Part shown: positions 9,693-57,763 of the stretch, in pieces
How the letters are laid out: every line of letters begins with the position of its first letter
Numbering within the stretch: the first letter of the stretch is position 1
Assembly: GCA_003330885.1 (NCBI GenBank)
Contig: CP030277.1
Coordinates: 2,592,001-2,656,000, forward strand
Reading direction: 5' to 3'
DNA: 64,000 nt
Origin: Rhodobiaceae bacterium
GTDB lineage: Bacteria; Pseudomonadota; Alphaproteobacteria; Parvibaculales; Parvibaculaceae
Program-made: the position numbers and the translations under genes
The notes under the pieces: model-generated
What the model was told of the DNA's origin: nothing
Databases searched by the model: none
Seen by the model: only the letters and a program-made list of their open reading frames with translations

Positions 9693-12766
<3,074 letters not shown>

Positions 12767-12767
<1 letters not shown>

Positions 12768-13165: not shown

Positions 13166-13241
13166 AATCACATTATATTTATGTGGTTGAAATAGTTCTC
13201 CTGAACCTATAAGTGAAATCCAACCAACAAATGGCGGACCC

Positions 13242-13700: not shown

Positions 13701-13761
13701 GGCCTGGAAGCTTAGACCACACACAATGTCCGCACTCACTATGCGGAATTCGGAGTAGAAT

Positions 13762-14100: not shown

Positions 14101-14507
14101 CCTCACCCCGCTCTATGCGTCTGATTTTGCTGAGCTTTCCCCGCCCGATCTTTATTTCAGGCGATTTTTGTGATATGCTCTCGCCAAAGTAATTCAACTA
14201 GGCCCCGGTTGAGGGATGACCGGGACATTTGGGCACCAATTTGGGCGGCAAAGCTTGGAAACAGGCGGTCCGCCAACGTGGGTCCTTTTCTGGGTCAAAC
14301 CTGGAGATGAGATAGGGGATCCGAAGAAAAGCTGATCTAGCCTCCTGGTGACAGTGGGGCGACATCCAGCGGTCTCTTCACGCATACGGATAAATTGGAC
14401 AAAAAGTGGCGGACAAATTGAACCGCTCTTCTGGTCTGTTTGATCCATCCAACGCCCCAAAGCCTAAAACCACATGCTGGCAGGACCAGCAAGCAGATGG
14501 AGCGATC
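14101..14507. other. Intergenic and leader region upstream of the CarD gene
   Basis: About 400 bp with no convincing gene if CarD starts at the ATG at 14508. An in-frame GTG at 14406 would extend that protein by 34 residues of ordinary composition, but it lacks a ribosome site. I see no clear terminator after fdxA and no recognisable RNA motif. Confidence 0.55.
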
Positions 14508-15644: not shown

Positions 15645-15670
15645 ATTTCAGCTCAAGCACTGATTTCAGG

Positions 15671-15699
15671 AAAAGCACGCTCTTAGCGGGCTTTTTTTG
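15671..15699 (+). terminator. Intrinsic terminator after the CarD gene
   Basis: AAAAGCACGCT and AGCGGGCTTTT form an 11-bp stem with one A-G mismatch and a CTT loop, followed by a run of T. It separates the CarD gene from rpoH. Confidence 0.65.
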
Positions 15700-15793
15700 T
15701 GATCCAGCCCAGTGGCCGGCCCGTATACCCCATGACACAAAAATCGCCTTGAGGTCGCGTTTACGACCTTTGGGGAGGGGACAAGGGACGGTC

Positions 15794-39257: not shown

Positions 39258-40943
39258 ATGCAACGCGATCTTTCTGCCATGAGCCAGACCGAGTACGACC
39301 TGATTGTCGTGGGCGGCGGCATTTCTGGGTCTTCCATTGCATGGGATGCGGCACTCCGGGGCTTGAAAGTCGCCCTGCTGGAGAAAGACGACTTTGCTCA
39401 CGCAACGACAGCCGGGTCTTCCAAGCTCATTCATGGGGGCCTGCGCTATCTGGTGAACGGTGAGATCGGTCTTGTGCGCGAGTCCCTGAGGGAACGGCGC
39501 GTCTGGGAGCAGAACGCGCCCCATTTGGTCGATCCCCTCCCCTTTATCATCCCCACCTATGGCAGGGGGATGAAGGGCGGCCTCGTGCTCTCCATCGGCC
39601 TCACCATGTATGATCTGCTGGCCTATGACAGAAATCGTCTGGACGATCCGGACAAGAAACTCCCAGGCTACAAAAGCATCTCACGCGAAGAAGCTTTGAC
39701 GCTCATGCCCTCGCTCAATCCCGATGGGTTGACCGGTGCTAAAATCTATTATGACTGTCAGATGTTCGCGCCAGAGCGCCTCTGTCTGGAATTCGTTCTG
39801 GGTGCGGTGGAAAAAGGGGCAGATGCCGCCAACTATGCCAAGGTCACGGGCTTTGAGAAAGAAGCAGGCGGTGCTGCAAACGGTCGCATAACCGGCGTCA
39901 CCGTCAAGGATGAGCTCACCGGCGACACCCACACGATCAAAGGCAAGCTCACCATCAACGCCGCCGGCCCCTGGGCAGACATCCTCATGGGACTGACCGA
40001 TGATGGCAAACCTTCACGGCGCCTCATCAGATCCAAGGGCATCCACCTCATCACCCGAGATCTCTCAGGCGAAAACGCACTCGCTGTTCAGTCCAAGATT
40101 GGTGGACACTTCTTTGTGTTGCCTTGGCGCGGAAAAACAATCCTTGGCACAACCGACACGGTCTTTGATGATGCGCCTGATAAGATCGGCGTGACAGAGC
40201 AAGACATTGAAGATTTTCTCGCTGTCGTGAATGATGGCCTGCCCACGCTCAATCTCACGCGCGACGATGTAGAGAATTTCTATGTCGGCATCCGCCCCTT
40301 GGTGGACACGACACCACAGGACGATGAAGACGATTCCGACAGCTACAATGCCAGCCGCGCGGCAGAGATTGTTGATCACGCGGAAGTAGATGGCGTCGAA
40401 GGCTTCCTGTCTGCCATGGGGGGCAAATGGACGACTTCCAGGCACTTGGCGGAGAAAGTCGTCGACAGCGCTACAAAGAAACTGGGACAACGGCCGAAAT
40501 GCACAACCGAAGACGTTCCTCTCTATGGTGGAGCCACCGGACGCTTCCTGCCCTTCACTGATAAAGCCATCTCCTCGCACACAGACATCCCCGCGGACAT
40601 TATCCGCAACCTGACCCGCTATCACGGCGCACGTTATGAAGAGGTGTTGGCGACGGCGAATGAGCGACAGGGAGAAGCGCCAGAACTGCTGCAGCCTTTG
40701 TCAGCGACCACACACGATATTGGCGCACAGATCGTCCATGCCGTCCGTCATGAAATGGCCGTAACCCTAGAAGACGCGCTGCTCCGGAGAACCGGGCTAG
40801 GCACCCTTGTCCATCCAGGTGAAGCAGCATTGGGCCGCGCCGCCGACCTTATGGCCAGAGAACTTGGCTGGGATGACGCAGAGCGCAGCAGACAGATCGA
40901 AAAAGTAGAGGCGAGCTATAAGACGCTCGACGGGGTCGCGTGA
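39258..40943 (+). CDS. glpD: Aerobic glycerol-3-phosphate dehydrogenase
   Basis: A 561-residue FAD enzyme of the GlpD family. The N-terminal dinucleotide fold is YDLIVVGGGISGSSIAWDAALRG, and TTAGSSKLIHGGLRYLVNGE and IRPLVDT are characteristic. It oxidises glycerol-3-phosphate to dihydroxyacetone phosphate and reduces quinone at the membrane. It has AAGGA six bases before the ATG and overlaps the next gene by 4 bp (GTGA), so coupling is tight. DHAP is the substrate base for the acyl- and alkyl-DHAP chemistry suggested by the neighbouring genes. Confidence 0.95.
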   Translation: MQRDLSAMSQTEYDLIVVGGGISGSSIAWDAALRGLKVALLEKDDFAHATTAGSSKLIHGGLRYLVNGEIGLVRESLRERRVWEQNAPHLVDPLPFIIPTYGRGMKGGLVLSIGLTMYDLLAYDRNRLDDPDKKLPGYKSISREEALTLMPSLNPDGLTGAKIYYDCQMFAPERLCLEFVLGAVEKGADAANYAKVTGFEKEAGGAANGRITGVTVKDELTGDTHTIKGKLTINAAGPWADILMGLTDDGKPSRRLIRSKGIHLITRDLSGENALAVQSKIGGHFFVLPWRGKTILGTTDTVFDDAPDKIGVTEQDIEDFLAVVNDGLPTLNLTRDDVENFYVGIRPLVDTTPQDDEDDSDSYNASRAAEIVDHAEVDGVEGFLSAMGGKWTTSRHLAEKVVDSATKKLGQRPKCTTEDVPLYGGATGRFLPFTDKAISSHTDIPADIIRNLTRYHGARYEEVLATANERQGEAPELLQPLSATTHDIGAQIVHAVRHEMAVTLEDALLRRTGLGTLVHPGEAALGRAADLMARELGWDDAERSRQIEKVEASYKTLDGVA

Positions 40944-41890
40944 GCGCGCGCACTTTTGCCATCATTAACCCGGCCTCCGGGGGTGGCCGGACCGGCCGCG
41001 ACTGGCCGGAGATCCAAAAGAAACTCGAAGCAGCCCTCGGCCCTGTGACCCCTCTCTTCACAGACGGACCCGCAACGCCTGCACACTTGCCAGCGGCCAA
41101 TCTTGCAAGAGACGCCACGGAAAAAGGCGCTGACCTCATCATCGCTGTCGGCGGCGACGGCACCATCAACGAAACCATCAATGGACTGTTTCACGATGTC
41201 TCCGACGGACAGGCACCTGCCCCCCTCGGCCTCCTCAACACGGGGACAGGCGGAGACTTCCGAAAGACTTTCGAGTTGCCAGCGGATCTCGATGCCTGCA
41301 TCGAGCGGCTAGCAAATGGGAGCAGTCGAACCATCGACATTGGGCGCCTCACTTTCAATGCAGATGACAATGTGCCAATGGCGCGCCATTTCAACAATAT
41401 TGCAAGCTTCGGCATGTCCGGCGCCGTCGATCGGGCGGTCAACAAGGCGCGCTTTTCCAAGCTGTTCGGCGGATCGTTCGCCTATCTTTGGGCAACTCTT
41501 TCCACAGCGCTGCGCTATCGCCCACAGGCTGTCCGCATCCGCACAGAAAGCGGGTGGGACGAAGTGATCAATGTGGGTACGGCAGCGGTCGCCAATGGAC
41601 GTTTCTTCGGCGGCGGCATGATGATGGCCCCTGATGCAGCACCTGACGATGGCGCGTTTGATCTGGTGATCATGCGAGACACCGGCGTGGGTGACCTCTT
41701 CAAGGATTCCGGCTCTCTTTATGACGGGACTCATATAGAAAACGAGAAAGTCATCGTCACCCGGACCCGCTGGGTTGAGGCCGAGCCCATTGATACCGCA
41801 CCTGTACTTCTAGATATTGACGGCGAGGCACCCGGCAAACTGCCTGCGCGCTTTGATATTTTACCAAGCGCCCTAACACTTAGATGCTGA
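40940..41890 (+). CDS. Diacylglycerol-kinase-family lipid kinase
   Basis: A 316-residue lipid kinase of the DagK/YegS fold. FAIINPASGGGRTGRDWPEIQ opens it, and the phosphate-binding VGGDGTINETINGL and GLLNTGTGGDF follow. The C-terminal beta domain ends in PVLLDIDGEAPGKLPARFDILP. It phosphorylates a diacylglycerol or other lipid alcohol using ATP. The GTG start overlaps the glpD stop. Confidence 0.93.
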   Translation: MSARTFAIINPASGGGRTGRDWPEIQKKLEAALGPVTPLFTDGPATPAHLPAANLARDATEKGADLIIAVGGDGTINETINGLFHDVSDGQAPAPLGLLNTGTGGDFRKTFELPADLDACIERLANGSSRTIDIGRLTFNADDNVPMARHFNNIASFGMSGAVDRAVNKARFSKLFGGSFAYLWATLSTALRYRPQAVRIRTESGWDEVINVGTAAVANGRFFGGGMMMAPDAAPDDGAFDLVIMRDTGVGDLFKDSGSLYDGTHIENEKVIVTRTRWVEAEPIDTAPVLLDIDGEAPGKLPARFDILPSALTLRC

Positions 41891-41926
41891 CCAAGCATCA
41901 AGGCGACATACCAAAGGATAAGACAC

Positions 41927-43597
41927 GTGACAATTGATCGTCAGACACTTCGCTGGAACGGCTGGGGCCCTGCCAAACAGGAAAATCCTATGCCTGATGG
42001 CGCACCGCAATGGGCCTGGATCAAGGAAACGCTGGGCATGGCGGTTCTACCCTCCACACCCGCAAAGCGCCTGTCGGACATTACGCTGCCGCCCTGCCAC
42101 CTGAGCGCAGGGGAAATCAAGAACCTTGAAGAGATTGTCGGCGAGAACCAGGTTCGCACCGATGATTATGAGCGAGCGTTTCACGCTCGTGGCAAAAGCT
42201 ATCACGACCTTCTTTATGTGCGCGCAGGGGACCTGGACGTGGCGCCCGATGCGGTGGTCTATCCCCGTGCACCGGGCGAAGTGCAATCGCTCCTTTCCTA
42301 TTGCGCTGAAAACGACATGAGCGTGGTTCCCTTTGGCGGCGGCTCAAGCGTTGTAGGGGGCGTCAATGCAACCGCCCGGTCTGCAACAGACAAAGTCATC
42401 ACGCTCGACCTCACCTTGATGGAGGGCATCCACGATGTGGATCGCGTCGCGATGACTGCGCGCATAGACGCCGGCATCTATGGTCCGCACCTTGAGGAGA
42501 AGCTGAACGCGCAAGGGCTAACCCTTGGTCATTATCCCCAGAGCTTCGAATATTCGACGCTCGGTGGATGGATCGCAGCACGGGGCGCCGGTCAGCAATC
42601 CAATCGCTATGGCAAGGCTGAAAAATGGGTCGTGTCAGCAAGACTGGCCACACCAAATGGTCCCTGGTCGACAGAAGAGTTTCCCGCATCCGCAGCTGGT
42701 CCGAACCTTAATCAGCTGGTCGCAGGGTCAGAAGGAACGCTCGGCGTCATCTGTGATGCAACCGTCAAAATCCACGAAAAGCCGCAAGCGAAAGACTATC
42801 GCGGCTACCTGTTCAAAGACTTTGCCACGGGCGTAGAAGTCGCACGCACTATCAACCATGCGGATATTCCCGTCGCAATGGTCCGCCTCTCCGACGCGGC
42901 AGAGACTTATTTCTTTCAGACCTTTGGATCAAGTGGCGGCGGTGGCCTCAAGTCCAAACTGCAAAATGCCTTTTTGAAATGGAAAGGTTTCGCCAAAGAC
43001 CCCTGCCTCATGCTCATTGGACTTGAAGGCGAAAAAACAACTGTTGAGTGGGCGAAAGAACGCACGAGCAGCATCTGCAAATCGGCTGGCGCTCTCGCGA
43101 TTGGGTCAAGTGCGGGAGACAGGTGGTATCACGGACGCTTTTCATCGCCCTACAGCCGTGACCCGATGATGGATCGGGGCATCGGGGTCGATACACTAGA
43201 AACCGCGACCCCGTGGTCCAACATCCTCAAGCTGCATGAAAAAATGATCGGCGCGATCCAAACTGCGCTGGATGAAAATATGGGCGAGCCCGGACAGAAA
43301 GGCATCGTCATGGGTCATGTCAGCCACTCTTACCCGGATGGGGCGAGCCTCTACTTCACATTCGTCTTTCCGCGTGATCTCAAGGACGAAATTGGTCAGT
43401 GGCAGCGGGTGAAACGCGCAGCATCAGACGCCATCGCGGCGAACGGCGGCACAATATCGCATCACCATGGCGTGGGCGCCGACCACACGCCGTGGATGGC
43501 TGAAGAAAAAGGGGCAATGGGCATGACGGTGCTGAAAACCCTGAAAGCAGAGCTTGATCCAAAAGGCATCATGAACCCCGGCAAGCTTCTCGGCTAA
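41927..43597 (+). CDS. Alkyldihydroxyacetonephosphate synthase-like FAD enzyme
   Basis: A 556-residue VAO-family flavoprotein that matches eukaryotic AGPS along its length. The N-terminal RWNGWG (residues 9-14), FAD loop PFGGGSSVVGGV (135-146), GSEGTLGVI (267-275) and SHHHGVG (511-517) are all AGPS hallmarks. By hand alignment R411 (in YSRDP) takes the place of the catalytic Arg419 of guinea-pig AGPS and Y476 the place of Tyr578; the His triplet is intact. AGPS replaces the acyl chain of acyl-DHAP by an alkyl chain, making ether lipids. Here it follows glpD and a lipid kinase. That order recalls M. tuberculosis Rv2249c-Rv2252. Actual ether-lipid synthesis is inference. Confidence 0.88.
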   Translation: MTIDRQTLRWNGWGPAKQENPMPDGAPQWAWIKETLGMAVLPSTPAKRLSDITLPPCHLSAGEIKNLEEIVGENQVRTDDYERAFHARGKSYHDLLYVRAGDLDVAPDAVVYPRAPGEVQSLLSYCAENDMSVVPFGGGSSVVGGVNATARSATDKVITLDLTLMEGIHDVDRVAMTARIDAGIYGPHLEEKLNAQGLTLGHYPQSFEYSTLGGWIAARGAGQQSNRYGKAEKWVVSARLATPNGPWSTEEFPASAAGPNLNQLVAGSEGTLGVICDATVKIHEKPQAKDYRGYLFKDFATGVEVARTINHADIPVAMVRLSDAAETYFFQTFGSSGGGGLKSKLQNAFLKWKGFAKDPCLMLIGLEGEKTTVEWAKERTSSICKSAGALAIGSSAGDRWYHGRFSSPYSRDPMMDRGIGVDTLETATPWSNILKLHEKMIGAIQTALDENMGEPGQKGIVMGHVSHSYPDGASLYFTFVFPRDLKDEIGQWQRVKRAASDAIAANGGTISHHHGVGADHTPWMAEEKGAMGMTVLKTLKAELDPKGIMNPGKLLG

Positions 43598-47586: not shown

Positions 47587-47704
47587 TCTGTCTGCTCCTG
47601 TAAAATCGCGAGGGACGCAAGTCTAGCGCGACAAGTCCGTCAGCGCCTACTAGGATATTGCCCGAGACGGCGCTAAGCCGCGGGGATAAAACAGGGAGCA
47701 GAAC

Positions 47705-48259
47705 ATGGCGCGTATTCCATATTTCGATCCGGCCGACGCAGAAGGCCGACTAAAAGAGACCATCGAGAAGCTGCCAGGCCTCAACATATTTCGCATGATG
47801 GCCCATTCAGGAGACCTTCTCGCGAAATTCACCGGACTCGGCAATCACATTCTGGGCCGTGCGAAGCTGGATGCCGTTCTGCGTGAAATCGCGATCATCC
47901 GGGTTGGGGTCCTGTCCAAAGCATCCTACGAAGTTTATCAGCACGAACGGATCGGCCGAGATATCGGCATGTCAGACGATCTGATCAAAGCGATCCATAA
48001 AGGGCCAGACGCATCTGCCTTTGATGACCTGCAGCGTCTTGTGATGGCCTTCACCGACGATGTGGTTCTGAATGTTCGTGCGAGCGATGCCACATTCGAT
48101 CCGCTCGCCAAGCATCTGAGTCATAAGGAGATGCAGGAGCTCACGCTTACCATCGGCTACTATATGATGGTGTCCCGTTTTCTGGAAACCTTCGATGTAG
48201 ACATTGAGGAAGACGGAAACAAAGCAAGCGTCGACCTTAAGTCTCTGGAGCGCAAATAA
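47705..48259 (+). CDS. Carboxymuconolactone decarboxylase-like protein A
   Basis: A 184-residue CMD/AhpD-fold protein: REIAIIRVGVLSKASYEVYQHERIGRDIG is the conserved helical hairpin, but the CxxC pair of AhpD peroxidase is absent (SKASYEV), so a thiol peroxidase role is unlikely. It is the first gene of a tight run of seven and has a paralogue immediately next (0-bp gap), so the two may form a hetero-oligomer. The natural substrate is unknown. Confidence 0.9.
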   Translation: MARIPYFDPADAEGRLKETIEKLPGLNIFRMMAHSGDLLAKFTGLGNHILGRAKLDAVLREIAIIRVGVLSKASYEVYQHERIGRDIGMSDDLIKAIHKGPDASAFDDLQRLVMAFTDDVVLNVRASDATFDPLAKHLSHKEMQELTLTIGYYMMVSRFLETFDVDIEEDGNKASVDLKSLERK

Positions 48260-48835
48260 GTGGCGCGCCTTCCCTACCCAGACCTGAAGGATCTGTCGCC
48301 AGAGAACAGAGATCTTATGGCAAGCCTGCCACCTCTGAATGTGTTTCGGATGATGTCGGGCGCAGCTGCCTCCTTTGCGCCCTTCATGCAGTTCATCAGC
48401 GCCTACCTCAATGAGGGTGTCCTTGATCCCGAACTTCGGGAATTGGTCATTCTGCGGGTCGGTCATCTATGTGGGTCAGCCTATGAAGTGCATCAGCATG
48501 AGCGCGTGTCGCGCACGCTGGGCATCTCAGAAGCGCGCATTCAAGCGGTCAAAGACAAACTTCCAAATGATCTTCTCAGTGACGCAGAGAATGCCGCTTT
48601 GCTTTTCGCAGACGAACAGGTCGCACAAGTCAAAGTCAGCGATACAACCTTCACAGCAACGCATACACATCTCACTGACCCGCAGGTAGTTGAGCTTACC
48701 ATCATCGTCGGAACCTACCTGATGGTCTGCCGTTTCCTGGAGACGCTCGAAATCGAGCTTGAAGAAACCGATATTGACGGGTCCGGCCTGGAAGAAATCG
48801 AAGCCAGCGTCAAAAGCCTGAACGGTGGCGAATAA
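48260..48835 (+). CDS. Carboxymuconolactone decarboxylase-like protein B
   Basis: A 191-residue paralogue of the preceding gene, beginning at GTG directly after its stop. RELVILRVGHLCGSAYEVHQHERVSRTLG gives one Cys where AhpD has two, so again no redox pair. C-terminal half is acidic. Second gene of the run. Confidence 0.9.
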   Translation: MARLPYPDLKDLSPENRDLMASLPPLNVFRMMSGAAASFAPFMQFISAYLNEGVLDPELRELVILRVGHLCGSAYEVHQHERVSRTLGISEARIQAVKDKLPNDLLSDAENAALLFADEQVAQVKVSDTTFTATHTHLTDPQVVELTIIVGTYLMVCRFLETLEIELEETDIDGSGLEEIEASVKSLNGGE

Positions 48836-48836
48836 G

Positions 48837-49685
48837 ATGCCCGACGACAAGAACAAGCCTTCCTACGTCCCCTTGCCCGTCGGTGAAGAGGCAGCCGGGC
48901 AAGCGCCGGGACGCGACAGGCTGACTGCGAAACGGATTCTCATTGTTGGCGGCGGACAACGCACGGTCGATGCCGAGACAGACTCGGTCGGCAATGGCCG
49001 CGCCATGTCTCTGCTTTTTGCACGTGAAGGAGCTCAAATAGCGGTCGCAGATATGGATACAGCGTCCGCAAATGCAACCGTGGATCAAATAGCATCCGAA
49101 GGGGGCAAAGCTTTTGCCCTGACCGCTGACATCTCAGACCCGGATCAGGTCACCGCAATGGTCACACAAGCCAGCGGCGCCATGGGCGGCTTGGATGGCA
49201 TCGTTCTCAATGTCGGCATAGGTGCGGGCATGGGCCTGGAAGGATCAACACCAGAGCTATGGAACCAGGTACTGGACGTAAATCTCCGCGGCCCCATGCT
49301 CGCCTGTCGTGCGGCCCTCCCCCTGATGGAAGAGGGAGGCGCGATCCTCTTCATCTCCTCTGTTGCCTCCATGAAGCCCGGCAGCCGCTTGCCGTCCTAT
49401 GACGCATCCAAAGCAGCATTGGCAGGTCTTATGCGCCATGTAGCCCTTGAGGCAGAACGCAAAGCGATCAGAGCGAACATTGTAGCGCCTGGATTGATCG
49501 ACACACCCCTTGGGCGTCTGTCAACACAGGGCCGCCCAAGCCGTGCTCGCACAAACATACCCGGAGGCCGCCAGGGCACAGGTTGGGAAGTGGCATATGC
49601 AGCACTCTTCCTCATGTCCGGCGAGGCATCCTACATTAACGGCCAGGTCTTGGCCGTCGACGCGGGCCTTTCGACCATCCGCTAA
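48837..49685 (+). CDS. SDR-family oxidoreductase with an expanded glycine loop
   Basis: About 282 residues from ATG 48837, one base after the upstream stop (GGTGG ahead); a GTG at 48825 would add four residues. The catalytic Ser (ISSVASMKPG) and YDASK are present. The dinucleotide loop is unusual: instead of TGxxxGxG there is GGGQ, about ten inserted residues with several acids, then GNGRA. Substrate unknown. It is the third gene of the run. Confidence 0.88.
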   Translation: MPDDKNKPSYVPLPVGEEAAGQAPGRDRLTAKRILIVGGGQRTVDAETDSVGNGRAMSLLFAREGAQIAVADMDTASANATVDQIASEGGKAFALTADISDPDQVTAMVTQASGAMGGLDGIVLNVGIGAGMGLEGSTPELWNQVLDVNLRGPMLACRAALPLMEEGGAILFISSVASMKPGSRLPSYDASKAALAGLMRHVALEAERKAIRANIVAPGLIDTPLGRLSTQGRPSRARTNIPGGRQGTGWEVAYAALFLMSGEASYINGQVLAVDAGLSTIR

Positions 49686-49706
49686 ATTCAATCTGGAGGA
49701 ACAAGC

Positions 49707-50690
49707 ATGTCATCTGCACACACATCCCTGGGGCTTCCCCAATTCGCCTACACCAAAGGCCTGCATGATCTGGGCAATGGCGGCTATGCCTATCTGCAAC
49801 CAGATGGGGGCTGGGGCTGGTCAAATGCGGGACTAATCGTGGATGGCGATGAAGCATTGCTTGTAGACACATTGTTTGACGTGCCTCTCACCCGCGAAAT
49901 GTTGGATACCATGCGCGCGGCGGAACCAAAGGCAGCCAACAACATCCACACTCTTGTGAACACGCACCACAATGGGGATCACTGCAACGGGAATGAATGC
50001 TGTGAAGGCGCAGAGATCATTGCTCACAAGCTCGCAGCCGAAGCCATGCTGAAGGAACCGCCAGCCCTGCTCGCCGGATTCCTGGATATGGCGCCGGACC
50101 TGGGCGACCTCGGCGACTTCATCACCAAAAGCTTCGGCGCGTTTGACTTTAAGGGCGTCACCCAGACCCTCCCGACAACAACTTTCGAGACGGAACTCAC
50201 CCGCAAAGTAGGTGACAAACAGGTACACCTCACCCATGTCGGCCCCGCACACTCACCAGGCGATATCATTGCCCATGTGCCATCCGACAAAACCGTTTAT
50301 ACCGGCGACATCCTCTTCATCGAGGGGCACCCCATCATGTGGGAAGGTCCCGTCCAGAACTGGATTGACGCCTGCAACGCAATCATGGCCATGGATGTGG
50401 AGACAGTGGTACCTGGCCACGGGCCTACCACTGACAAGCGTGGGGTGAAAGCTGTACAGGACTATCTCATATACACACGCGACGAAGCGAAGAAGCGCTA
50501 TGACGCGGGGATGAGTGCCATGGAGGCCTGCAAGGACATCAATTTTTCTGACTATGACAGCTGGGGAGACGGGGAACGCATCATCATCAACGTGACCACG
50601 CTCTACCGGGAATTCTCTGGCGAGGAAGCCGAACCTGACATCCCGACCCTCTTCGGGCAGATGGCGGAACTTGCCAAAGATCGACGCTGA
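49707..50690 (+). CDS. Metallo-beta-lactamase-fold hydrolase
   Basis: A 327-residue MBL-fold hydrolase. The metal motif reads NTHHNGDHCNGNE (H-H-N-G-D-H), with later ligands in HVGPAHSPGD and VPGHGP. These enzymes hydrolyse thioesters, lactones, or phosphodiesters; the substrate is unknown. Fourth gene of the run, 21 bp after the SDR. Confidence 0.9.
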   Translation: MSSAHTSLGLPQFAYTKGLHDLGNGGYAYLQPDGGWGWSNAGLIVDGDEALLVDTLFDVPLTREMLDTMRAAEPKAANNIHTLVNTHHNGDHCNGNECCEGAEIIAHKLAAEAMLKEPPALLAGFLDMAPDLGDLGDFITKSFGAFDFKGVTQTLPTTTFETELTRKVGDKQVHLTHVGPAHSPGDIIAHVPSDKTVYTGDILFIEGHPIMWEGPVQNWIDACNAIMAMDVETVVPGHGPTTDKRGVKAVQDYLIYTRDEAKKRYDAGMSAMEACKDINFSDYDSWGDGERIIINVTTLYREFSGEEAEPDIPTLFGQMAELAKDRR

Positions 50691-50719
50691 CCTAGGTCTT
50701 TGGCAAACAAGGGGACCCC

Positions 50720-51505
50720 ATGCTGACGCTTTTTGAACATCCACTCTCGCCCTATGCGCAGAAAAACAAAATCGCGCTTCGCGAAAAAGATATTGAGTTC
50801 GAGCTGGCCACACCTGATGCCATTGGCTCAGGCGACGCAGGCGGTGAGTTTCTGAAAGCCAATCCACGCGGTGAAGTGCCAGCACTCATTGACGATGGCT
50901 TCGCCATTTTCGACAGCACCATCATCCTGGAATATCTGGAAGACAAATGGCCAACCCCGTCGCTCTTACCAGAAAGCCCGGCAGACCGCGCCCGCGTGCG
51001 CATGATTGAAGACGTGATGGACACCCATTTTGAAGCCATCAACTGGGGCCTGGGTGAGATTGCATATTTCAAGCGCGCCCAAGGAAAGGAAGCGGAGGCA
51101 ATCTTCGCCAAAGCCGCACGCCAGACCCAAACCTTCTTTGCCTGGCTTGAAGACCAGCTTGGTGACGCCGACTGGTTCAATGGTGAGGCGTTCGGGTGGG
51201 GCGATCTCTCGGTCATCCCCTATATCAACGGCTCGGCATCCTTCGGCAACACGCCACCCGCGGGCTCGAGGCTCGAAGCCTGGGCGGCGCGGACCAATGC
51301 CCGTCCCGCCGTTGCCCAGTCCGCGAAAGAAGCCGCCGCGAGCATAGAAGGCATGACCATGGTGGCAGATGTGGTTGAGCAAGGTCTTTTCAAGCGTGAA
51401 TATCGCGACCATCGGTTGGAATGGATCGTGAAGACTGCAGGCCTCGATGTGATCGCCAAAGGCCTCGACAAAAACAACATCCGCTTTTCAAACGACTTTT
51501 CTTGA
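50720..51505 (+). CDS. Glutathione S-transferase-like protein
   Basis: A 261-residue GST: thioredoxin-like domain (LFEHPLSPYAQKNKIALREKDIEFEL, GEVPALIDDG, DSTIILEYLEDKW) followed by the helical domain (WFNGEAFGWGDLSVIPYING). Active-site residue is likely the Ser of HPLSPY. Fifth gene of the run. Confidence 0.9.
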   Translation: MLTLFEHPLSPYAQKNKIALREKDIEFELATPDAIGSGDAGGEFLKANPRGEVPALIDDGFAIFDSTIILEYLEDKWPTPSLLPESPADRARVRMIEDVMDTHFEAINWGLGEIAYFKRAQGKEAEAIFAKAARQTQTFFAWLEDQLGDADWFNGEAFGWGDLSVIPYINGSASFGNTPPAGSRLEAWAARTNARPAVAQSAKEAAASIEGMTMVADVVEQGLFKREYRDHRLEWIVKTAGLDVIAKGLDKNNIRFSNDFS

Positions 51506-51527
51506 AACACCCATCTGAAAGCTGACC

Positions 51528-52466
51528 ATGACCGACATGCAAAATGCCATTCTCTTCCATCAATACGACATCTCACCTTTCTCAGAGAAGGTGCGCGTAG
51601 CCTTTGGCATCAAGGGGCTCACCTGGTACGCCGTCGAGCAACCGGTCATTATGCCAAAACCGGAACTGACCACACTTACTGGCGGGTACCGAAAGATTCC
51701 GGTCATGCAGATCGGTGCAGATATTTATTGCGATACCCAGATCATCCTGCGCGAGATCGAGAAGCGCTATCCAACCCCCTCACTCTTTGTCGGCGGCGAC
51801 AAAGCGCTCGGCTGGGGCATGGGCCTTTGGACGGACAGAGTGCTGTTCCAGGCGGCTGTCGCCGTCATCTTTGGCACGACAGAGGGCTTTGCAGATGAGG
51901 CCTTTATGAAAGACCGGGAAAAACTGATGGGCCGTCCTTTCAATACTGATGAGATGAGAGCCGGTGCGCCCATGATGATGGAACAGCTCCGCGCGCAGCT
52001 CGATTGGTTGGAAGAGCAGCTCTCCGATGGTCGTTCATTCCTGATGGGACCTGATGCAGGCATTGCCGACGTCAACGCCTTTTACAATCTTGCCTTCATC
52101 CGCTGGATTGCACCGGCCGGCGCCGCCGTCATTGATGCCTTTAGGAACGTTGTTGCCTGGGAAAACCGCATTCAGGAAATCGGTCATGGTGACAGGCAGG
52201 AGCTCCGTCGCGAAGAAGCCTTGGACATCGCCCGCGACACAACAAGCACAGAGACCGAAACCGCTGATCAGGGAGAACCCAACGGTCTGATGCCCGGCGA
52301 TCATGTGCATGTCATGGCAGACGACTATGGTCGCGATCCGATTGCAGGCGAACTCGTCTCCTCCTCCGCGCAACACGTAGCCATTAGGCGCAACGACCCC
52401 CGCGTTGGCGATGTGGTCGTTCATTTCCCACGGGCAGGCTTCTTCGTCATGAAGGCGGGCCAATAG
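51528..52466 (+). CDS. GST-like protein with an extra C-terminal domain
   Basis: A 312-residue protein. Residues 7-90 have the GST thioredoxin-like domain (LFHQYDISPFSEKVRVAF, YRKIPVMQIG, CDTQIILREIEKRYP) and 100-225 the helical domain (FLMGPDAGIADVNAFYNLAF). After a Thr/Glu-rich linker (about 235-252), residues 253-312 add a separate beta-rich segment (GLMPGDHVHVMADDYGRDPIAGEL to HFPRAGFFV). Ordinary GSTs of this type end near 220. The extension is unidentified. Sixth gene of the run. Confidence 0.85.
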   Translation: MTDMQNAILFHQYDISPFSEKVRVAFGIKGLTWYAVEQPVIMPKPELTTLTGGYRKIPVMQIGADIYCDTQIILREIEKRYPTPSLFVGGDKALGWGMGLWTDRVLFQAAVAVIFGTTEGFADEAFMKDREKLMGRPFNTDEMRAGAPMMMEQLRAQLDWLEEQLSDGRSFLMGPDAGIADVNAFYNLAFIRWIAPAGAAVIDAFRNVVAWENRIQEIGHGDRQELRREEALDIARDTTSTETETADQGEPNGLMPGDHVHVMADDYGRDPIAGELVSSSAQHVAIRRNDPRVGDVVVHFPRAGFFVMKAGQ

Positions 52467-52472
52467 TGCGCA

Positions 52473-52925
52473 ATGATGGACCATCGTTTCGACAAGGCAG
52501 TGTTGACACTGCCACATCCCGGCTTTCCCTCACTGGCAGCAGAAGCTGCCGGTGAGGGCCACGCCTTCCTGAAACGCATGCAAGACGATTGGGACACAGG
52601 TAAAAACCGTTTCTCAGCACCCGGCGAATATGTGGTGGGGATCAGCTTAGGCGACAAGTTGGTCGCTATTGGCGGCCTCAATAAGGACCCTTATGCAATT
52701 GAAGCAACGACGGGCCGCCTTAGACATCTCTATGTGGCGGCAGCGCACAGACGCTGCGGCATTGGTCGCGCTCTTGTTGACACGTTGCTCTCGCAAGCTG
52801 GAAGTTACTTTCACCGCGTTCGCCTCCGCACCGATAGCGCGGGGGCTGCAGCTTTTTATGAAAGCTATGGATTTCATCCGACCCGAGAGCCCGACGCTAC
52901 CCATAACCTTCGTCTCAATACGTGA
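52473..52925 (+). CDS. GNAT-family N-acetyltransferase
   Basis: A 150-residue acetyltransferase with LRHLYVAAAHRRCGIGRALVDTLL (acetyl-CoA loop RxxGxG/A) and YESYGF at the end. It begins six bases after the GST-like gene and ends the seven-gene run. Its substrate may be a product of the upstream enzymes. Convergent with the next SDR gene. Confidence 0.85.
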   Translation: MMDHRFDKAVLTLPHPGFPSLAAEAAGEGHAFLKRMQDDWDTGKNRFSAPGEYVVGISLGDKLVAIGGLNKDPYAIEATTGRLRHLYVAAAHRRCGIGRALVDTLLSQAGSYFHRVRLRTDSAGAAAFYESYGFHPTREPDATHNLRLNT

Positions 52926-52934
52926 AAAAGCAGG

Positions 52935-53741
52935 TCAGCTGGCGGTCATGCCACCATCAATGACAAGTTCTGTGCCTGTCATATAGCGGGACTCATCTGA
53001 TGCTAAGAAGACCACACCAGCAGCAATGTCTGCGGGAAGCCCAGCTTTACCACCAGGGACACTGAGCGAGGCAAGCGTATCAGGATCAATGGCATTGGCA
53101 CCGTCTACTATCGCTTCTGAATTGCCGAACGTGTCATTATCGATAATGGATTTCGTCCAGATCGCCGTGTCGATAATCCCTGGATGCACTGAGTTGCTGC
53201 GAATATTGTTTCCTGCCTGAGCACACTCAAGAGCAACCGCCTTGGAGAAAAGGCGAACAGCGCCTTTGGTGGCACAGTACCCCGAAAGCCCTGGCGCCCC
53301 GCCAAGCCCAGCAATAGACGATACATTGATGATCGATCCGCTACCGCTCTCAGTCATTGCCGGGATCGCGTATTTGCAGCCAAGGAACACGCCATCAATA
53401 TTGATAGACGTTTGGACACGCCAGTCTTCCAGACTCATTTCGGTGACAGGGGCACCAATGGCAATTCCGGCATTATTGAGCAGCACATGGAGACCGCCAA
53501 AACTCTCAACCGCAATGGCGACAACTTCACCCCAGCGGGCCTCATCGGTCACGTCCTGTGGAGCGAATTTGGCAGATCCACCAGCTTCCTTGATTTGCGC
53601 GACAGTGGCTTCGCCACCCTCAACATCAATGTCTGTGACAAGCACTTTTGCACCCTCGGCTGCCATAGCAATCGCCGAGCCGCGCCCAATACCGCTGCCA
53701 CCGCCCGTCACCAAAGCCACCTTATTGTCCAGACGTCCCAT
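52935..53741 (-). CDS. SDR-family oxidoreductase
   Basis: A 268-residue short-chain dehydrogenase with TGGGSGIG, DID after the second strand (NAD preference), NNAG, SSIAG with the catalytic Ser, YCATKGAV and an HPGIIDT loop. Resembles 3-alpha/20-beta-hydroxysteroid dehydrogenase-like and cyclohexanol dehydrogenase-like members. Divergent from the TetR gene; the shared gap holds a palindrome. Confidence 0.92.
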   Translation of the reverse strand: MGRLDNKVALVTGGGSGIGRGSAIAMAAEGAKVLVTDIDVEGGEATVAQIKEAGGSAKFAPQDVTDEARWGEVVAIAVESFGGLHVLLNNAGIAIGAPVTEMSLEDWRVQTSINIDGVFLGCKYAIPAMTESGSGSIINVSSIAGLGGAPGLSGYCATKGAVRLFSKAVALECAQAGNNIRSNSVHPGIIDTAIWTKSIIDNDTFGNSEAIVDGANAIDPDTLASLSVPGGKAGLPADIAAGVVFLASDESRYMTGTELVIDGGMTAS

Positions 53742-53818: not shown

Positions 53819-53842
53819 AAAATTAGACTTCGGTCTAGTTTT
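53819..53842. promoter_or_regulatory. TetR-type operator candidate
   Basis: AAAATTAGAC-TTCG-GTCTAGTTTT: 10-bp inverted arms with a single mismatch and a 4-bp centre, ending 18 bp before the TetR GTG. TAGAC-N4-GTCTA is the core. It lies in the gap shared with the divergent SDR gene. Confidence 0.55.
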
Positions 53843-53860: not shown

Positions 53861-54481
53861 GTGAGCGTGGGAGCATCTGAAAATCTGTCGATCACAGGTC
53901 AGCCATCTCGACGCTCTCGCAAAAAGGAGCAGACCCGGAGAGGCATCTTTGCCGCTGCAATGAAGCTTTTTGCAGACCATGACTATGACGCGGTCACGAT
54001 TGAAGACATTTGCGACCGCGCCGACGTCGCTAAGGCCACCTTCTTTCTCCATTTCCCGAACAAGGCCGCTCTGCTTACCGAATTCAACGAGCGTCTGACG
54101 GCAAACCTTCAGGAACGCCTCATCAATGTGTCCGGCAGCGCAGAGGACAAGCTTCGCTTCATGGTGAGCGCCCTCGTCGATGATTGGGAGCAGAACGCTC
54201 AGATCATGCGCAAAATGGTCAGAGAGTTTCTCAACCAACCCTCACTGCCAGAAGCCGCGACAGAAGCAAATGAAGGCCTTCTCGATCTCATTACCAATAT
54301 CGTCAGAGAAGGACAGCAGGCACGTGAATTCGGGAGCAAAGTAGCGCCCGACCTTGTCGCCGCAGCCCTTGTCGCAAGCTGGGGATCCTTCGTTTCAGCT
54401 TGGAGCAACAACAGGGAAGACATTCCCAAATCGGCAGGAGAAGACCTGCTCGACATTATGCTGAACGGCCTAAAGACCTGA
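53861..54481 (+). CDS. TetR-family transcriptional regulator
   Basis: About 206 residues if the GTG at 53861 is used; it has AAGGA five bases upstream, whereas the frame reaching back to TTG 53801 would run through the palindrome listed separately. The helix-turn-helix is TIEDICDRADVAKATFFLHFPNKAALL. A ligand-binding helical domain follows. Divergent from the SDR gene and upstream of the flavin monooxygenase, which it may control. Confidence 0.9.
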   Translation: MSVGASENLSITGQPSRRSRKKEQTRRGIFAAAMKLFADHDYDAVTIEDICDRADVAKATFFLHFPNKAALLTEFNERLTANLQERLINVSGSAEDKLRFMVSALVDDWEQNAQIMRKMVREFLNQPSLPEAATEANEGLLDLITNIVREGQQAREFGSKVAPDLVAAALVASWGSFVSAWSNNREDIPKSAGEDLLDIMLNGLKT

Positions 54482-54526: not shown

Positions 54527-55744
54527 ATGCCTGGACCAAAACTACGCTTCGGTGCCTTCATCGCCCCCTTTCACGCTCTAGACGAAAATCCATCCCTGGC
54601 CATGCACCGCGACATGGAACTGGTCGAGTGGATGGACAAGCTTGGCTATGACGAAGCCTGGATTGGCGAACATCACTCAGCAGCCTTTGAAGTCATCGCA
54701 AGCCCGGAACTGTTCATTGCAGCGGCGGCGGAACGCACAAAAAACATTCGCTTCGGGACGGGCGTCTCTTCGCTCCCCTATCACCACCCTCTGATGCTGG
54801 CTGACCGCATCAACCAGCTGGACCATATGACCCGTGGCCGGGTGATGTTCGGTGTTGGTCCGGGCTCACTGCCATCCGACGCGTTCATGATGGGTATTGA
54901 TGTGCAGACCCAGCGCGACAAAATGGACGAAGCGCTAGAAGTGCTCGTCCCTTTGCTTCGCGGCGAGACCGTTACCCATAAATCCGACTGGTTTGAACTC
55001 AACGAGGCACATCTGCAGATGACGCCCTACTCCCGTCCGTCGGTGGAAATCGCGACCGCAAGCCAGGTCTCTCCAACGGGTACGACAGCAGCAGGTCGTC
55101 TCGGCCTCAGTCTTCTGTCTCTCGGCGCCACCTCGTCAGGTGGGTTTAACGCGTTAGCCTCCAACTGGGCCATTGCAGAAGAAAAAGCCAAGGACCATGG
55201 CAATGTCATGGACCGGTCTGGCTGGCGCCTTGTGGGTCCGATGCATATCGCCGAAACAAGAGAGCAAGCACGGAAAGACGTCGAATTTGGCCTCAAAAAC
55301 TGGCTGGCCTATTTCCGCGAAGTTGCCGCCCTCCCACTGGCACCTGACGATGCAGGAGATCCCGTGGACGCATTGATCGAATCCGGTCTTGCCGTGATCG
55401 GCACACCGGAAGACGCCATCGCCCAGCTTGACCGCCTCGAAGCACAATCCGGCGGCTATGGAGCTTTCCTGTTTATGGCGCATAACTGGGCAAACTTCGA
55501 ACGCACCAAAAATTCCTACGAATTGATGGCACGTTATGTGATGCCAAAATTCCAGGGCCTCAACACAAATCGCGAGCAGTCATACGCTTGGGCACGCGAC
55601 AATCACGAGACCTTCATGGGTGCGGCCATCGCAGCTGTTGGCACACGAATCGCAAAACACATCGAGGAAAAGGGCACTGAGAATATCAGCCCGGACATTC
55701 TGGCAGCTGCTGCTGAAATGCACAAAACAGACGCTGCTGAGTAA
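54527..55744 (+). CDS. LLM-class flavin-dependent oxidoreductase (limonene-monooxygenase-like)
   Basis: A 405-residue luciferase-like monooxygenase: LRFGAFIAPFHALDENP, DEAWIGEHHS, GTGVSSLPYHHPLMLADRINQLDHMTRGRVMFGVGPG. This set resembles LimB-type limonene 1,2-monooxygenases of the family, but no limonene-pathway gene is near. It needs a separate flavin reductase, not seen here. It starts 45 bp after the TetR gene on the same strand and ends in a terminator. Confidence 0.9.
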   Translation: MPGPKLRFGAFIAPFHALDENPSLAMHRDMELVEWMDKLGYDEAWIGEHHSAAFEVIASPELFIAAAAERTKNIRFGTGVSSLPYHHPLMLADRINQLDHMTRGRVMFGVGPGSLPSDAFMMGIDVQTQRDKMDEALEVLVPLLRGETVTHKSDWFELNEAHLQMTPYSRPSVEIATASQVSPTGTTAAGRLGLSLLSLGATSSGGFNALASNWAIAEEKAKDHGNVMDRSGWRLVGPMHIAETREQARKDVEFGLKNWLAYFREVAALPLAPDDAGDPVDALIESGLAVIGTPEDAIAQLDRLEAQSGGYGAFLFMAHNWANFERTKNSYELMARYVMPKFQGLNTNREQSYAWARDNHETFMGAAIAAVGTRIAKHIEEKGTENISPDILAAAAEMHKTDAAE

Positions 55745-55815: not shown

Positions 55816-57609
55816 TTAGACCCTGACCTCACCCGCATTGATCTTGTCGTAAAGCGCCTTGTCCAGCGGAACAAAGGCTTTTGCTGCAGGGTCATTGAAA
55901 TAGATCGGGTCAGACACGCTCTCGGGATCAAACCCTTCCTTCACAAGTTCGACTTTGCGGTGTTTGAAGGTTCCTGTGATTTCGATCTCTGGCTGAATGC
56001 GGATAAAGAGCGGCTGAGCATAGGCTGCGAGCTCCTTCTCCAGATGGGTCCTCAGCTTCGGCAGATCTACTTCTTTGGAAGACACAATCGAGGCCATGCC
56101 CGCACGGCCATCGGCCCCGGGTACATTCACCCCATAAACATTGGCTTCCTTGATGCCCTCAAAGACTGAAATCGCTTCTGCGACTTCAGAGGTCGCAACA
56201 TTCTCGCCCTTCCAGCGGAACGTGTCGCCAATCCGGTCGATGAAATAGAAGTAGCCCTTCTCATCCTGCTTCAGAAGATCGCCAGTCCGAAACCAGGCAT
56301 CGCCCTTCTCAAACACATCCCGGAGGATTTTCTTGCTGGTCGCGGCTTTATCCGCATATCCATCAAAACGACCCGTTGGTAGGCTCGGGTCAATCTTGCC
56401 TAACGCCTCCCCGACTTCGCCAGGGGCGCAGACTTCACACAACCCATCGGCACCGCGAATAGGCTCTTCGCTTTCAATGTCAAACTTCACGATCTCAACA
56501 TTGTATTTTGACTTTGCCCATTTGGGGATACGGCCAATAGAGCCGACTGTGCCGTCATAGTTCACGAGCGCCACATTGCCCTCCGTCGCGCCATAGAATT
56601 CAATGACCTTCGGGATTTTGAAACGCTCCTGGAACTCAGGCCAGATCTCAGGTCGCAGCCCGTTGCCCACCACCGTACGCAGCTTGTGCTTACGTTCTTT
56701 TGGATGGATTTCCGTATTCAACATGTAACGACAGAGTTCACCGATATACTGGAAGAGGGTCGCTTTGTGGTCGACCACATCATCCCAGAATTCCCGTGCC
56801 GAGAAGCGCCGTTTGATGATAACCGAGCCACCTACTGTCAGCGTAATCCCAACTGCGCAAACACCACCGGCAGAGTGATAAAGCGGCAGACAGACATACA
56901 TCCGGTCTCTTTCAGTAGAGTTCGTCGCCGCAGCAAATCCCCCCATCATGATGAGAAGGCGGACATGCGGTATTTTCGCCGCCTTTGGATTGCCCGTCGT
57001 GCCACTGGTGTAAATGTAGAGAGCCGTATTGTCCGTCGTCAGGTCTTTACGATAGTCAGCGGGAAGCGCTTCCGGGGACCGGTCCGCCAGGACCGCATCA
57101 AGATCTTCTGTTCCCTGAACCGCACCGCCCGTCGCCCATACCTTCATTGGTCGCTCAAGACTATCGACCGCGGTCGAGAAATTCTCAGCCAGCTCTGCTC
57201 CGAGGACCAGATGATCCGCCCCAGAGATGGAGAGCGAATGCACCAAAGGCCCGCCAGTCAGGTTTGTATTAATGAGGGCCGCAGCACCGCCCGCCTTGAT
57301 GATCCCGATCCAGGCCACCAGATATTCCGCCCTGTTCTCCATAAGGAGAGCCACAGAGACGTCAGGTCCAACACCTTGCTCTTTCGCCCACCGGGCATAT
57401 CTGTTGGCAGCCGCATCAAGCTCCGCATAGGTCATCGTACCCTGATCGGAGACAATGGCGATATTGTTTGGTTTTGTTCGAGCAAAATCCTCGATCACGT
57501 CAGCAAACGTCCGTGTCTCATCCGCATAAATCGCGTTCACCTTTTTCAGGGAACGCAGGGCGGCGCGCGCGAAGGTCACATCATTGCCAATACTTTGAAT
57601 AAGACCCAT
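55816..57609 (-). CDS. Long-chain acyl-CoA synthetase (FATP/FadD6-like)
   Basis: About 597 residues from ATG 57609, whose GGAGGTGA site is very good; ATG 57624 adds five residues. The AMP signature is YIYTSGTTGNPKAAKI and the adenylation motif FYGATEGNV, with WFRTGDLLKQDEKGYFYFIDRIGDTFRWKGENV as in FATP-type enzymes. It activates fatty acids or sterol side chains to CoA thioesters. Divergent from the TusA-like gene. Confidence 0.92.
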   Translation of the reverse strand: MGLIQSIGNDVTFARAALRSLKKVNAIYADETRTFADVIEDFARTKPNNIAIVSDQGTMTYAELDAAANRYARWAKEQGVGPDVSVALLMENRAEYLVAWIGIIKAGGAAALINTNLTGGPLVHSLSISGADHLVLGAELAENFSTAVDSLERPMKVWATGGAVQGTEDLDAVLADRSPEALPADYRKDLTTDNTALYIYTSGTTGNPKAAKIPHVRLLIMMGGFAAATNSTERDRMYVCLPLYHSAGGVCAVGITLTVGGSVIIKRRFSAREFWDDVVDHKATLFQYIGELCRYMLNTEIHPKERKHKLRTVVGNGLRPEIWPEFQERFKIPKVIEFYGATEGNVALVNYDGTVGSIGRIPKWAKSKYNVEIVKFDIESEEPIRGADGLCEVCAPGEVGEALGKIDPSLPTGRFDGYADKAATSKKILRDVFEKGDAWFRTGDLLKQDEKGYFYFIDRIGDTFRWKGENVATSEVAEAISVFEGIKEANVYGVNVPGADGRAGMASIVSSKEVDLPKLRTHLEKELAAYAQPLFIRIQPEIEITGTFKHRKVELVKEGFDPESVSDPIYFNDPAAKAFVPLDKALYDKINAGEVRV

Positions 57610-57763
57610 CGGGTCACCTCCCATTTTTCTTCTTTTGCAACAATGGTATGTAACCGGGACAAAATTTGGGGGTCAAGCAGAACCGGTCAAAGACCTGCCC
57701 GATCCCCTACACTGGGCGGGGTTTTCCACCACCTGCGATGCGCTGAGACACTTTGAGGGTCAA

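Follow-up and report, generated by a model that had tools for sequence, protein, structure and literature searches.

A conserved cluster of CMD-fold, dehydrogenase, metallo-hydrolase and glutathione transferase genes in a Rhodobiaceae bacterium, and its possible part in the breakdown of cyclic compounds

Genes and signals at the locus

The window analysed is the whole 64,000-nt stretch of contig CP030277.1 (positions 2,592,001 to 2,656,000). A sequence-only reading had placed an operon of seven same-strand genes at 47705-52925. All seven open reading frames were present there and were chosen also by a codon-usage gene caller run on the window, and the domains named for them were recovered by Pfam in gene order (CMD, CMD, SDR, Lactamase_B, GST, GST, GNAT). 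The genes and features are listed below, with the number of cluster loci (out of 28; described in the next section) that share a neighbouring gene.

39258-43597: glycerolipid genes (GlpD-like oxidoreductase, diacylglycerol kinase, FAD-linked oxidase)
47628..47656, + strand: GCGACA-N17-TAGGAT, a promoter-like block preceding the operon (sequence match only)
47705..48259, + strand: cmd1, carboxymuconolactone decarboxylase/AhpD-fold protein without CxxC (Pfam CMD, 1.5e-6)
48260..48835, + strand: cmd2, cmd1 paralogue, 37% identical, GTG start (Pfam CMD, 2.9e-9)
48837..49685 (alternative GTG start 48825), + strand: sdr, short-chain dehydrogenase (Pfam adh_short_C2, 5.8e-57)
49707..50690, + strand: mbl, metallo-beta-lactamase-fold hydrolase (Pfam Lactamase_B, 4.2e-21)
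50720..51505, + strand: gst1, glutathione S-transferase (Pfam GST_N, 1.1e-15)
51528..52466, + strand: gst2, glutathione S-transferase-like protein (Pfam GST_N_3, 1.1e-12)
52473..52925, + strand: gnat, acetyltransferase, a rider in the closest relatives only (Pfam Acetyltransf_1, 8.7e-13)
52935..53741, - strand: sdr2, second SDR, convergent (22/28 loci)
53819..53842, no strand: palindrome AAAATTAGACTTCGGTCTAGTTTT, putative operator of the TetR gene (10-bp arms, one mismatch)
53861..54481 (alternative start 53801), + strand: tetR-family regulator (Pfam TetR_N, 7.3e-17; 22/28 loci)
54527..55744, + strand: llm, luciferase-like flavin monooxygenase (Pfam Bac_luciferase, 6.3e-41; 24/28 loci)
55816..57624, - strand: acs, long-chain acyl-CoA synthetase (NCBIfam NF006134, 763 bits vs cut-off 625; 21/28 loci)

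Gaps of 0 to 29 bp had been reported for the seven-gene run and were confirmed: 0 nt between cmd1 and cmd2, 21 nt between sdr and mbl, 29 nt between mbl and gst1, 22 nt between gst1 and gst2, and 6 nt between gst2 and gnat. cmd2 and sdr are separated by 1 nt with the ATG start at 48837 and overlap by 11 nt with the GTG start at 48825. The close packing exceeds chance, since all 6 adjacent pairs in the operon lie on the same strand and no more than 30 nt apart, as do 8 of the 53 other adjacent pairs in the window, where the next longest run of such genes is three.

The promoter-like block was found with identical 17-nt spacing in four of the five closest loci (the window, L032, L033 and L034) and was not seen in L035, for which the 125 bp preceding cmd1 were compared. 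GCGACA-N17-TAGGATA occurs as a single exact copy in the 3.86-Mb genome, and one-mismatch matches of the block were not in excess genome-wide (4 in all vs 3 in the control). By our own count the block agrees with the consensus at 8 of 12 positions, too few for the promoter scan to report it. A palindrome in the equivalent position, possibly the operator of the TetR gene, was also found in L033 and, with arms of 15 bp, in L035; the sequence taken from L032 ends before the site. The TetR regulator may still govern the operon, but the sequence gave no sign of it: the palindrome has no second copy in the window, and no palindrome was found upstream of cmd1.

Beyond the regulator, the best solved relative of llm was 3,6-diketocamphane 1,6-monooxygenase (4uwm, 2.8e-24, with the best stretch covering only residues 36-126). 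3,6-Diketocamphane monooxygenase belongs to the type II Baeyer-Villiger enzymes. The short stretch matched and the varied chemistry of LLM proteins both speak against the reading favoured below. On the far side of the operon, the FAD-linked oxidase is presumably alkyl-DHAP-synthase-like. The GlpD-like and diacylglycerol kinase genes there point to lipids, again against that reading. A literature search gave no paper on the cluster or naming its gene set, and the main text of the Ca. Phaeomarinobacter paper (PMC4110880) nowhere uses the terms aromatic, glutathione or carboxymuconolactone.

Conservation of gene order and co-occurrence

Gene order was compared in 79 named loci with an MBL gene. 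Gene presence was scored by tblastn, because the gene caller gave wrong-strand ORFs in L038 and L046. cmd or gst genes lay beside mbl in 28 of the 79 loci (mbl in 28, gst1 in 26, gst2 in 25, cmd2 in 25, cmd1 in 24 and sdr in 22), with order and strand mostly kept. The order deviates in L051 and L172; cmd-sdr-mbl-gst1-gst2 is kept in L060 and L062, though no sdr2 or tetR homologue is shown there. The conserved unit is the six genes cmd1-cmd2-sdr-mbl-gst1-gst2. Of the seven-gene operon originally proposed, these six stand, and the GNAT gene is ruled out as a member (3/28 loci, L032-L034; missing in L035). The operon claim itself is supported by the conserved order and by the promoter-like scan (itself no better than chance), which gave no + strand site inside 47705-52925 and so no separate sites for the inner genes. 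Order conservation is stronger evidence for the cluster than spacing; taken with the spacing and the conserved promoter-like block, it suggests that the six genes would form one transcription unit.

The six-gene set is not obligatory, since 51 of the 79 loci show mbl with no accompanying cmd or gst homologue, a close MBL is missing in 5 of 37 own-family genomes (G007, G011, G013 and G016 with no or only remote matches; G010 with a 51% match), and mbl, gst2 and cmd1 are on separate contigs in G126. The 51 loci include L042, a short Parvibaculum contig with no cmd or gst homologue above the tblastn limits, though ORF calling labelled gst2 there. Cluster genes nevertheless co-occur in the class beyond synteny. 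mbl and gst2 were found together in 16 of 289 genomes (expected 3.4), or 12 (expected 2.6) with the own family left out; the figures for mbl and cmd1 were 15 (2.9) and 11 (2.2). Fisher values for these pairs are left out, as they take no account of how related or how large the genomes are. gst2 homologues, nearly all full-length, were present in 39/289 genomes (E 1e-20), and none of the other cluster genes was found adjoining the plasmid gst2 homologues (4 of 7 records inspected). At most 8 SDR candidates were scored per genome, so absences of SDR carry little weight. The cluster genes are under purifying selection, with dN/dS of 0.013-0.078 in 23 unsaturated comparisons out of 26 (the set excludes the GNAT gene of L033, although tblastn detects it).

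Relatives carry variable inserts between sdr and mbl (sulfotransferase and FAH genes, and amidohydrolases of two kinds) and an ECF sigma factor gene between mbl and gst1. The slot before mbl holds an amidohydrolase, from one of two different families, in 7/32 cluster loci. A 5-nitroanthranilate-type pathway, prompted by an M20 enzyme in L060 and L062, found no support, as that enzyme is closest to an IAA-amino-acid hydrolase. The changing content, and the occurrence of mbl, gst2 and cmd1 apart from one another in G126 and L169, would fit a set of helper enzymes of broad range that are expressed from a shared promoter and serve several routes rather than a single pathway. This is unlikely, as the order is largely maintained across the 28 loci, L060 and L062 included, and the genes co-occur even where they are not adjacent.

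An AMP-forming CoA ligase gene lies upstream on the opposite strand in 21/28 cluster loci; the window's genome yielded no close counterpart (best match 42%). Tailoring of an endogenous lipid or quinone, tied to the glycerolipid genes and acs, was also weighed. It draws on the annotation of acs as a long-chain acyl-CoA synthetase, on glycerolipid genes of which some recur in the vicinity of mbl or cmd1 (L159, L169), and on Coq4-like genes further along in relatives. It is quite improbable, given that the glycerolipid genes and the operon have between them genes for a lipase, a chemoreceptor and a DUF924 protein that are not all on one strand, that glycerolipid genes occur in the flanks compared in only 5/28 cluster loci, and that mbl, unlike core lipid genes, is present in 25/289 genomes of the class.

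Enzyme families and their nearest relatives

The conservation alignment shows that the Gly-rich loop of sdr carries an insertion and that its S-Y-K set is intact. Both GSTs belong to the GST superfamily by their domains and retained glutathione-site residues (SPY, E-V-P and D-S motifs in gst1). Of the two GST_C matches of gst1, one narrowly passes its cut-off and the other narrowly misses it. The extra domain ascribed to gst2 was borne out as a conserved C-terminal domain of ~80 residues, and gst2 residues 7-309 align with the solved GST-like proteins 4kf9 and 3ic8. gst1 fell far short of both the IsoI model (24.8 bits, cut-off 300) and the beta-etherase model (35.3 bits, cut-off 440). In beta-aryl ether cleavage LigD is an SDR and LigE/F and LigG are GSTs. 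The operon likewise has an SDR with GSTs, and LigF is among the solved relatives of gst1 and 4g10, which we take to be LigG, among those of gst2. The isoprene isoGHIJ and styrene StyI/StyJ systems also combine an SDR with two GSTs, predicted CoA activation and a nearby monooxygenase; unlike them, the window has no CoA-transferase-type IsoG among its seven proteins, and the available part of the source describes no CMD and MBL counterparts (PMC10057887).

The CMD proteins had been described as lacking CxxC, and the motif was found in 0/36 aligned sequences. E61, Y75, E76 and H80 (cmd1) are kept in 36/36, and the two relay cysteine positions are Ala/Ser/Gly and Glu in 36/36. An AlphaFold model of cmd1 (pLDDT 92.7) has an AhpD-like fold, with the debrominase Bmp8 among its fold neighbours. 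In comparison with the AhpD peroxidases (CxxC with a Glu/His relay), the cysteines are gone and the Glu and His retained. The NCBIfam search (E 0.01) gave no match to a gamma-carboxymuconolactone decarboxylase (PcaC) model, from a library that presumably contains one. cmd1 shares its fold with gamma-carboxymuconolactone decarboxylase and with the AhpD-like protein PA0269, which has a proton relay of Glu, Tyr, His and two cysteines (PMC3141380); the Glu, Tyr and His are retained in cmd1, whereas both cysteines are replaced in all 36 aligned proteins.

mbl was assigned to the MBL fold by Pfam and a predicted model (pLDDT 91.2). Its motif residues are H87-x-N89-x-D91-H92, H182, D201 and H238; H-x-N-x-D-H stands in place of the full HxHxDH in 80/80 rows, and in a wider MBL set of 58 the motif residue is Asn in 57 and Asp in one. 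A literature search for the string HXNXDH gave nothing. Scores fell below the cut-offs for quinoprotein relay zinc metallohydrolase (TIGR04559, 98.9 vs 280) and glyoxalase II (TIGR03413, 26.4 vs 200.8). The nearest fold neighbour of known function of the predicted model was chlorothalonil dehalogenase (6uxu; Z 28.2, rmsd 2.8 over 274 residues, 21% identity), a mononuclear-zinc enzyme with ligands Asp116, His117, His257 and Asn216 (PMC12784990). In our own reading of the alignment these correspond to mbl D91, H92, H238 and D201. Both proteins share second-site ligands (Asp-His, His, Asn/Asp), but the dehalogenase has Ser and His where mbl has the first-site H87 and N89.

Around divergent MBL homologues, FAH-family genes occur at a distance of 4 kb or less in 9/18 loci (the 18 of 23 loci with an MBL match; 9/17 without the remote-MBL locus L162), at 7.8 per 100 kb vs 0.5 further out. 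They accompany a true MBL homologue in 6/7 plasmid loci vs only 3/10 alphaproteobacterial loci, and mbl in 1/50 other named loci; the nearest FAH in the window's genome (38% identical) is elsewhere in the genome. A putative metallohydrolase gene (lumF) and an FAH-family gene (lumV), neither with an assigned role, occur together in the Nocardioides lumichrome (riboflavin) breakdown cluster, whereas glutathione and muconolactone are absent from the main text of its description (PMC12746152).

These families could also serve detoxification, in which electrophiles (enals, quinones, algal halogenated phenols) would be cleared by glutathione conjugation and hydrolysis with no carbon gain. The conserved glutathione-site motifs of both GSTs, a hydrolytic dehalogenase as the nearest solved MBL relative of known function and the debrominase Bmp8 as a fold neighbour of cmd1 argue for it. 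We consider it somewhat unlikely: the conserved CoA ligase, LLM monooxygenase and dehydrogenase neighbours, and the FAH-family genes beside part of the divergent MBL homologues, are typical of carbon breakdown; AhpD requires cysteines (PMC3141380), which cmd1 and cmd2 lack, and the title of the Bmp8 structure entry mentions a Cys82 mutant.

A candidate route for cyclic compounds

The likeliest role of the operon is the glutathione-assisted degradation of some cyclic compound. The catabolic or detoxification role first suggested for it is supported indirectly, by the enzyme families, by the CoA-ligase, monooxygenase and dehydrogenase neighbours and by FAH beside divergent MBL homologues; ring- or lactone-opening on a glutathione-linked intermediate, proposed at the same time, is a plausible hypothesis. 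Our preferred reading, held tentatively, is that one transcription unit may supply the intermediate reactions by which a cyclic oxygenated carbon compound is degraded through CoA- and glutathione-linked steps; the compound would be a cyclic ketone, a lactone or a product of ring fission. The neighbouring luciferase-like monooxygenase would oxidize its cyclic substrate, a ketone or an alkene, to give a lactone or an epoxide, and the MBL hydrolase would open the lactone or a similar ester ring, acting mainly via its second metal site, as proposed because one first-site ligand is Asn. gst1 would add glutathione to an electrophilic intermediate (epoxide or enone), sdr would oxidize the resulting alcohol, and gst2 would remove or exchange the glutathione. 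The two Cys-less CMD-fold proteins, possibly a heteromer, may act as an acid-base (Glu/His) isomerase or decarboxylase, and the acid product would be converted to its CoA ester by ligases that flank the operon in relatives.

A bolder and rather doubtful form of the preferred reading is an undescribed glutathione- and CoA-linked route for cyclic ketones or lactones in Parvibaculum-group alphaproteobacteria. It would combine luciferase-type Baeyer-Villiger lactone formation, opening by an HxNxDH metallo-hydrolase of its own subfamily and a new acid-base decarboxylase or isomerase step by a heteromeric Cys-less CMD pair.

The operon ties one Cys-less CMD group and one Asn-motif MBL group to fixed partners, so that the reactions of both the CMD and the MBL proteins could be assigned by studying a single operon in a Parvibaculum that can be cultured. 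mbl occurs without these partners also in SAR86, PS1-clade and Pseudomonadales genomes, and its substrate may therefore matter in the ocean.

Gene content and conservation of the operon

Seven open reading frames, all on the + strand and separated by gaps of 0–29 bp, were found at 47705-52925 as the sequence-only reading had proposed, and Pfam assignments (CMD, CMD, SDR, Lactamase_B, GST, GST and GNAT) bore out the domains it had named. The genes are referred to below as cmd1, cmd2 (CMD fold), sdr, mbl (metallo-beta-lactamase fold), gst1, gst2 and gnat. All six adjacent pairs of this run shared a strand with a gap of ≤30 nt, as did just 8 of the window's 53 remaining pairs; the genome is a single contig of 3.86 Mb.

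Eighty named loci around MBL homologues were retrieved and 79 used, L071 being dropped as it lies on the same contig as L070. Loci with a cmd or gst homologue above identity limits, together with mbl, were taken as cluster loci (28 of 79). Core genes were present in these 28 as follows: mbl 28, gst1 26, gst2 25, cmd2 25, cmd1 24 and sdr 22. Neighbouring genes were present at llm (luciferase-like monooxygenase) 24, sdr2 22, tetR 22, acs (acyl-CoA synthetase) 21, DUF924 19 and gnat 3, and an AMP-forming CoA ligase was called upstream in 21. Part of the absences reflected contig ends (e.g., L034, L047 and L051). From these comparisons, cmd1-cmd2-sdr-mbl-gst1-gst2 is predicted to be a real conserved operon; of the seven-gene operon originally proposed, these six genes form the conserved unit, and GNAT is an addition in the closest relatives.

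In the remaining 51 loci neither cmd nor gst accompanied mbl, which shows that the MBL gene is distributed more widely than the operon. A close MBL homologue was missing from 5 of 37 genomes of the organism's own family (G007, G010, G011, G013 and G016). Variant arrangements were a cmd-sdr-amidohydrolase-mbl-gst1-gst2 core with the upstream CoA ligase on the opposite strand and LLM downstream (L060 and L062), an altered order of cmd, mbl, cmd, gst1 (L051 and L172), and retention of mbl-gst1-gst2 only (L163). In L159 mbl adjoins a gst2 match, and in L169 there is a lone cmd1, within the same chromosomal neighbourhood. Several Parvibaculum loci carried a beta-N-acetylglucosaminidase-family gene in the slot after gst2 (e.g., L050:12815-13879), which GNAT occupies in the window, and some had sulfotransferase-family and arylsulfotransferase-family genes between sdr and mbl, near FAH and amidohydrolase genes (L039:3107-6641).

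Co-occurrence was counted in 289 genomes of the class, with presence set by E-value limits and counts uncorrected for relatedness or genome size (mbl present in 25, gst2 in 39, cmd1 in 34). Joint presence exceeded expectation for mbl and gst2 (16 vs 3.4 expected; own family excluded, 12 vs 2.6), mbl and cmd1 (15 vs 2.9; 11 vs 2.2) and gst2 and cmd1 (17 vs 4.6; 13 vs 3.7). dN/dS was 0.013–0.078 against four close loci (23 unsaturated of 26 comparisons).

Upstream elements and neighbouring genes

47628-47656: promoter-like block GCGACA-N17-TAGGAT, upstream of cmd1
53819-53842: palindrome, upstream of tetR; arms longer in L035

The spacing of the promoter-like block was constant and its spacer sequence variable in the window, L032, L033 and L034; in L035 it was not seen within 125 bp before cmd1. 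Judged by contig coordinates, L032–L035 (G003, G001, G004 and G005) seem congeneric with the window's genome, in which GCGACA-N17-TAGGATA occurs exactly once. The block was omitted by a general promoter scan because only 8 of 12 sigma-70 positions match (own count); that scan returned no + strand site inside the operon and 3 sites in all across the region, vs 4.0 in shuffles. Within the operon leader (47657-47704), GAGACGGC was kept in the four aligned loci; it belongs to a short, GC-rich inverted repeat whose loop and second arm diverge in L034.

The palindrome suggests 53861 rather than 53801 as the start of tetR. The best solved relative of llm was 3,6-diketocamphane 1,6-monooxygenase (2.8e-24), its best stretch being limited to residues 36–126. 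Elsewhere in the window, genes for a GlpD-like oxidoreductase, a diacylglycerol kinase and a FAD-linked oxidase, which we take to be alkyl-DHAP-synthase-like, are consecutive at 39258-43597; the row is reminiscent of a mycobacterial set, and some of its members also lie close to mbl or to cmd1 at loci L159 and L169. A multicopper oxidase gene lies close to the window end (59875-61263), and AT skew reached its maximum among the 2-kb steps (~0.3) over + strand genes at 12001-16000.

Predicted chemistry of the encoded proteins

The metal-site residues of mbl are H87-x-N89-x-D91-H92, H182, D201 and H238. N89 was invariant in 80 of 80 rows, and among 58 wider homologues was Asn in 57 and Asp in one. 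Scores against NCBIfam TIGR04559, TIGR04558 and GloB were far below cut-offs. The predicted model (pLDDT 91.2) was closest, among 1000 chains compared, to 8d2z (Z 31.8) and then to 6uxu (Z 28.2), a chlorothalonil dehalogenase. PMC12784990 describes a mononuclear catalytic zinc in this dehalogenase, with ligands Asp116, His117, His257 and Asn216. As these ligands match D91, H92, H238 and D201 in our own alignment reading, it is plausible that the metal centre of mbl is mainly mononuclear and uses the second site; first-site H87 and H182 are retained.

FAH-family genes were counted in 23 loci from further genomes and plasmids, picked for matching an operon protein independently of FAH. Eighteen had an MBL match, and in 9 of these a FAH-family gene lay ≤4 kb away (density 7.8 per 100 kb near the match vs 0.5 farther out). 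Split by source, the 9 came from plasmids (6 of 7 loci) and from alphaproteobacterial genomes (3 of the 10 loci whose MBL homologue is a true one); L162, which completes the 18, had a remote MBL only and no FAH. Annotated examples came from Novosphingobium, Pseudosulfitobacter, Pseudonocardia and, farther off, Rhodococcus. Among 32 cluster loci, FAH was nearby in 3 and an amidohydrolase in 7. The link fails in the other, mainly gammaproteobacterial and PS1 named loci, since FAH was near in 1 of 50.

Cmd1 and cmd2 share 37% identity, and the cmd1 model (pLDDT 92.7) has an AhpD-like fold. PA0269 employs Glu36, Cys48, Tyr50, Cys51 and His55, according to PMC3141380; by spacing and alignment these correspond to cmd1 E61, position 73, Y75, E76 and H80. 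E61, Y75, E76 and H80 were invariant in all 36 sequences aligned, position 73 was Ser in 19, Ala in 15 and Gly in 2, and CxxC occurred in none of the 36. Replacement of the PA0269-type cysteines and absence of CxxC make AhpD-kind peroxidase chemistry unlikely, and we infer acid-base chemistry for the CMD proteins.

Ser-Pro, cis-Pro and Asp-Ser/Thr features of gst1 and gst2 were conserved among relatives, and sdr has an insertion in its Gly-rich loop with the Ser-Tyr-Lys set intact. The extra domain noted earlier in the second GST was upheld: gst2, this domain included, aligns along most of its length (residues 7–309) to the solved structures 4kf9 and 3ic8, which are named only GST or GST-like.

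The six-gene operon is likened to iso- and lig-like glutathione-linked modules as a variant of them, differing in that its gst1 falls below the family cut-offs of both named systems. It is most likely catabolic, and might, as a tentative proposal somewhat short of even chance, serve a cyclic ketone or lactone route with glutathione and CoA steps.
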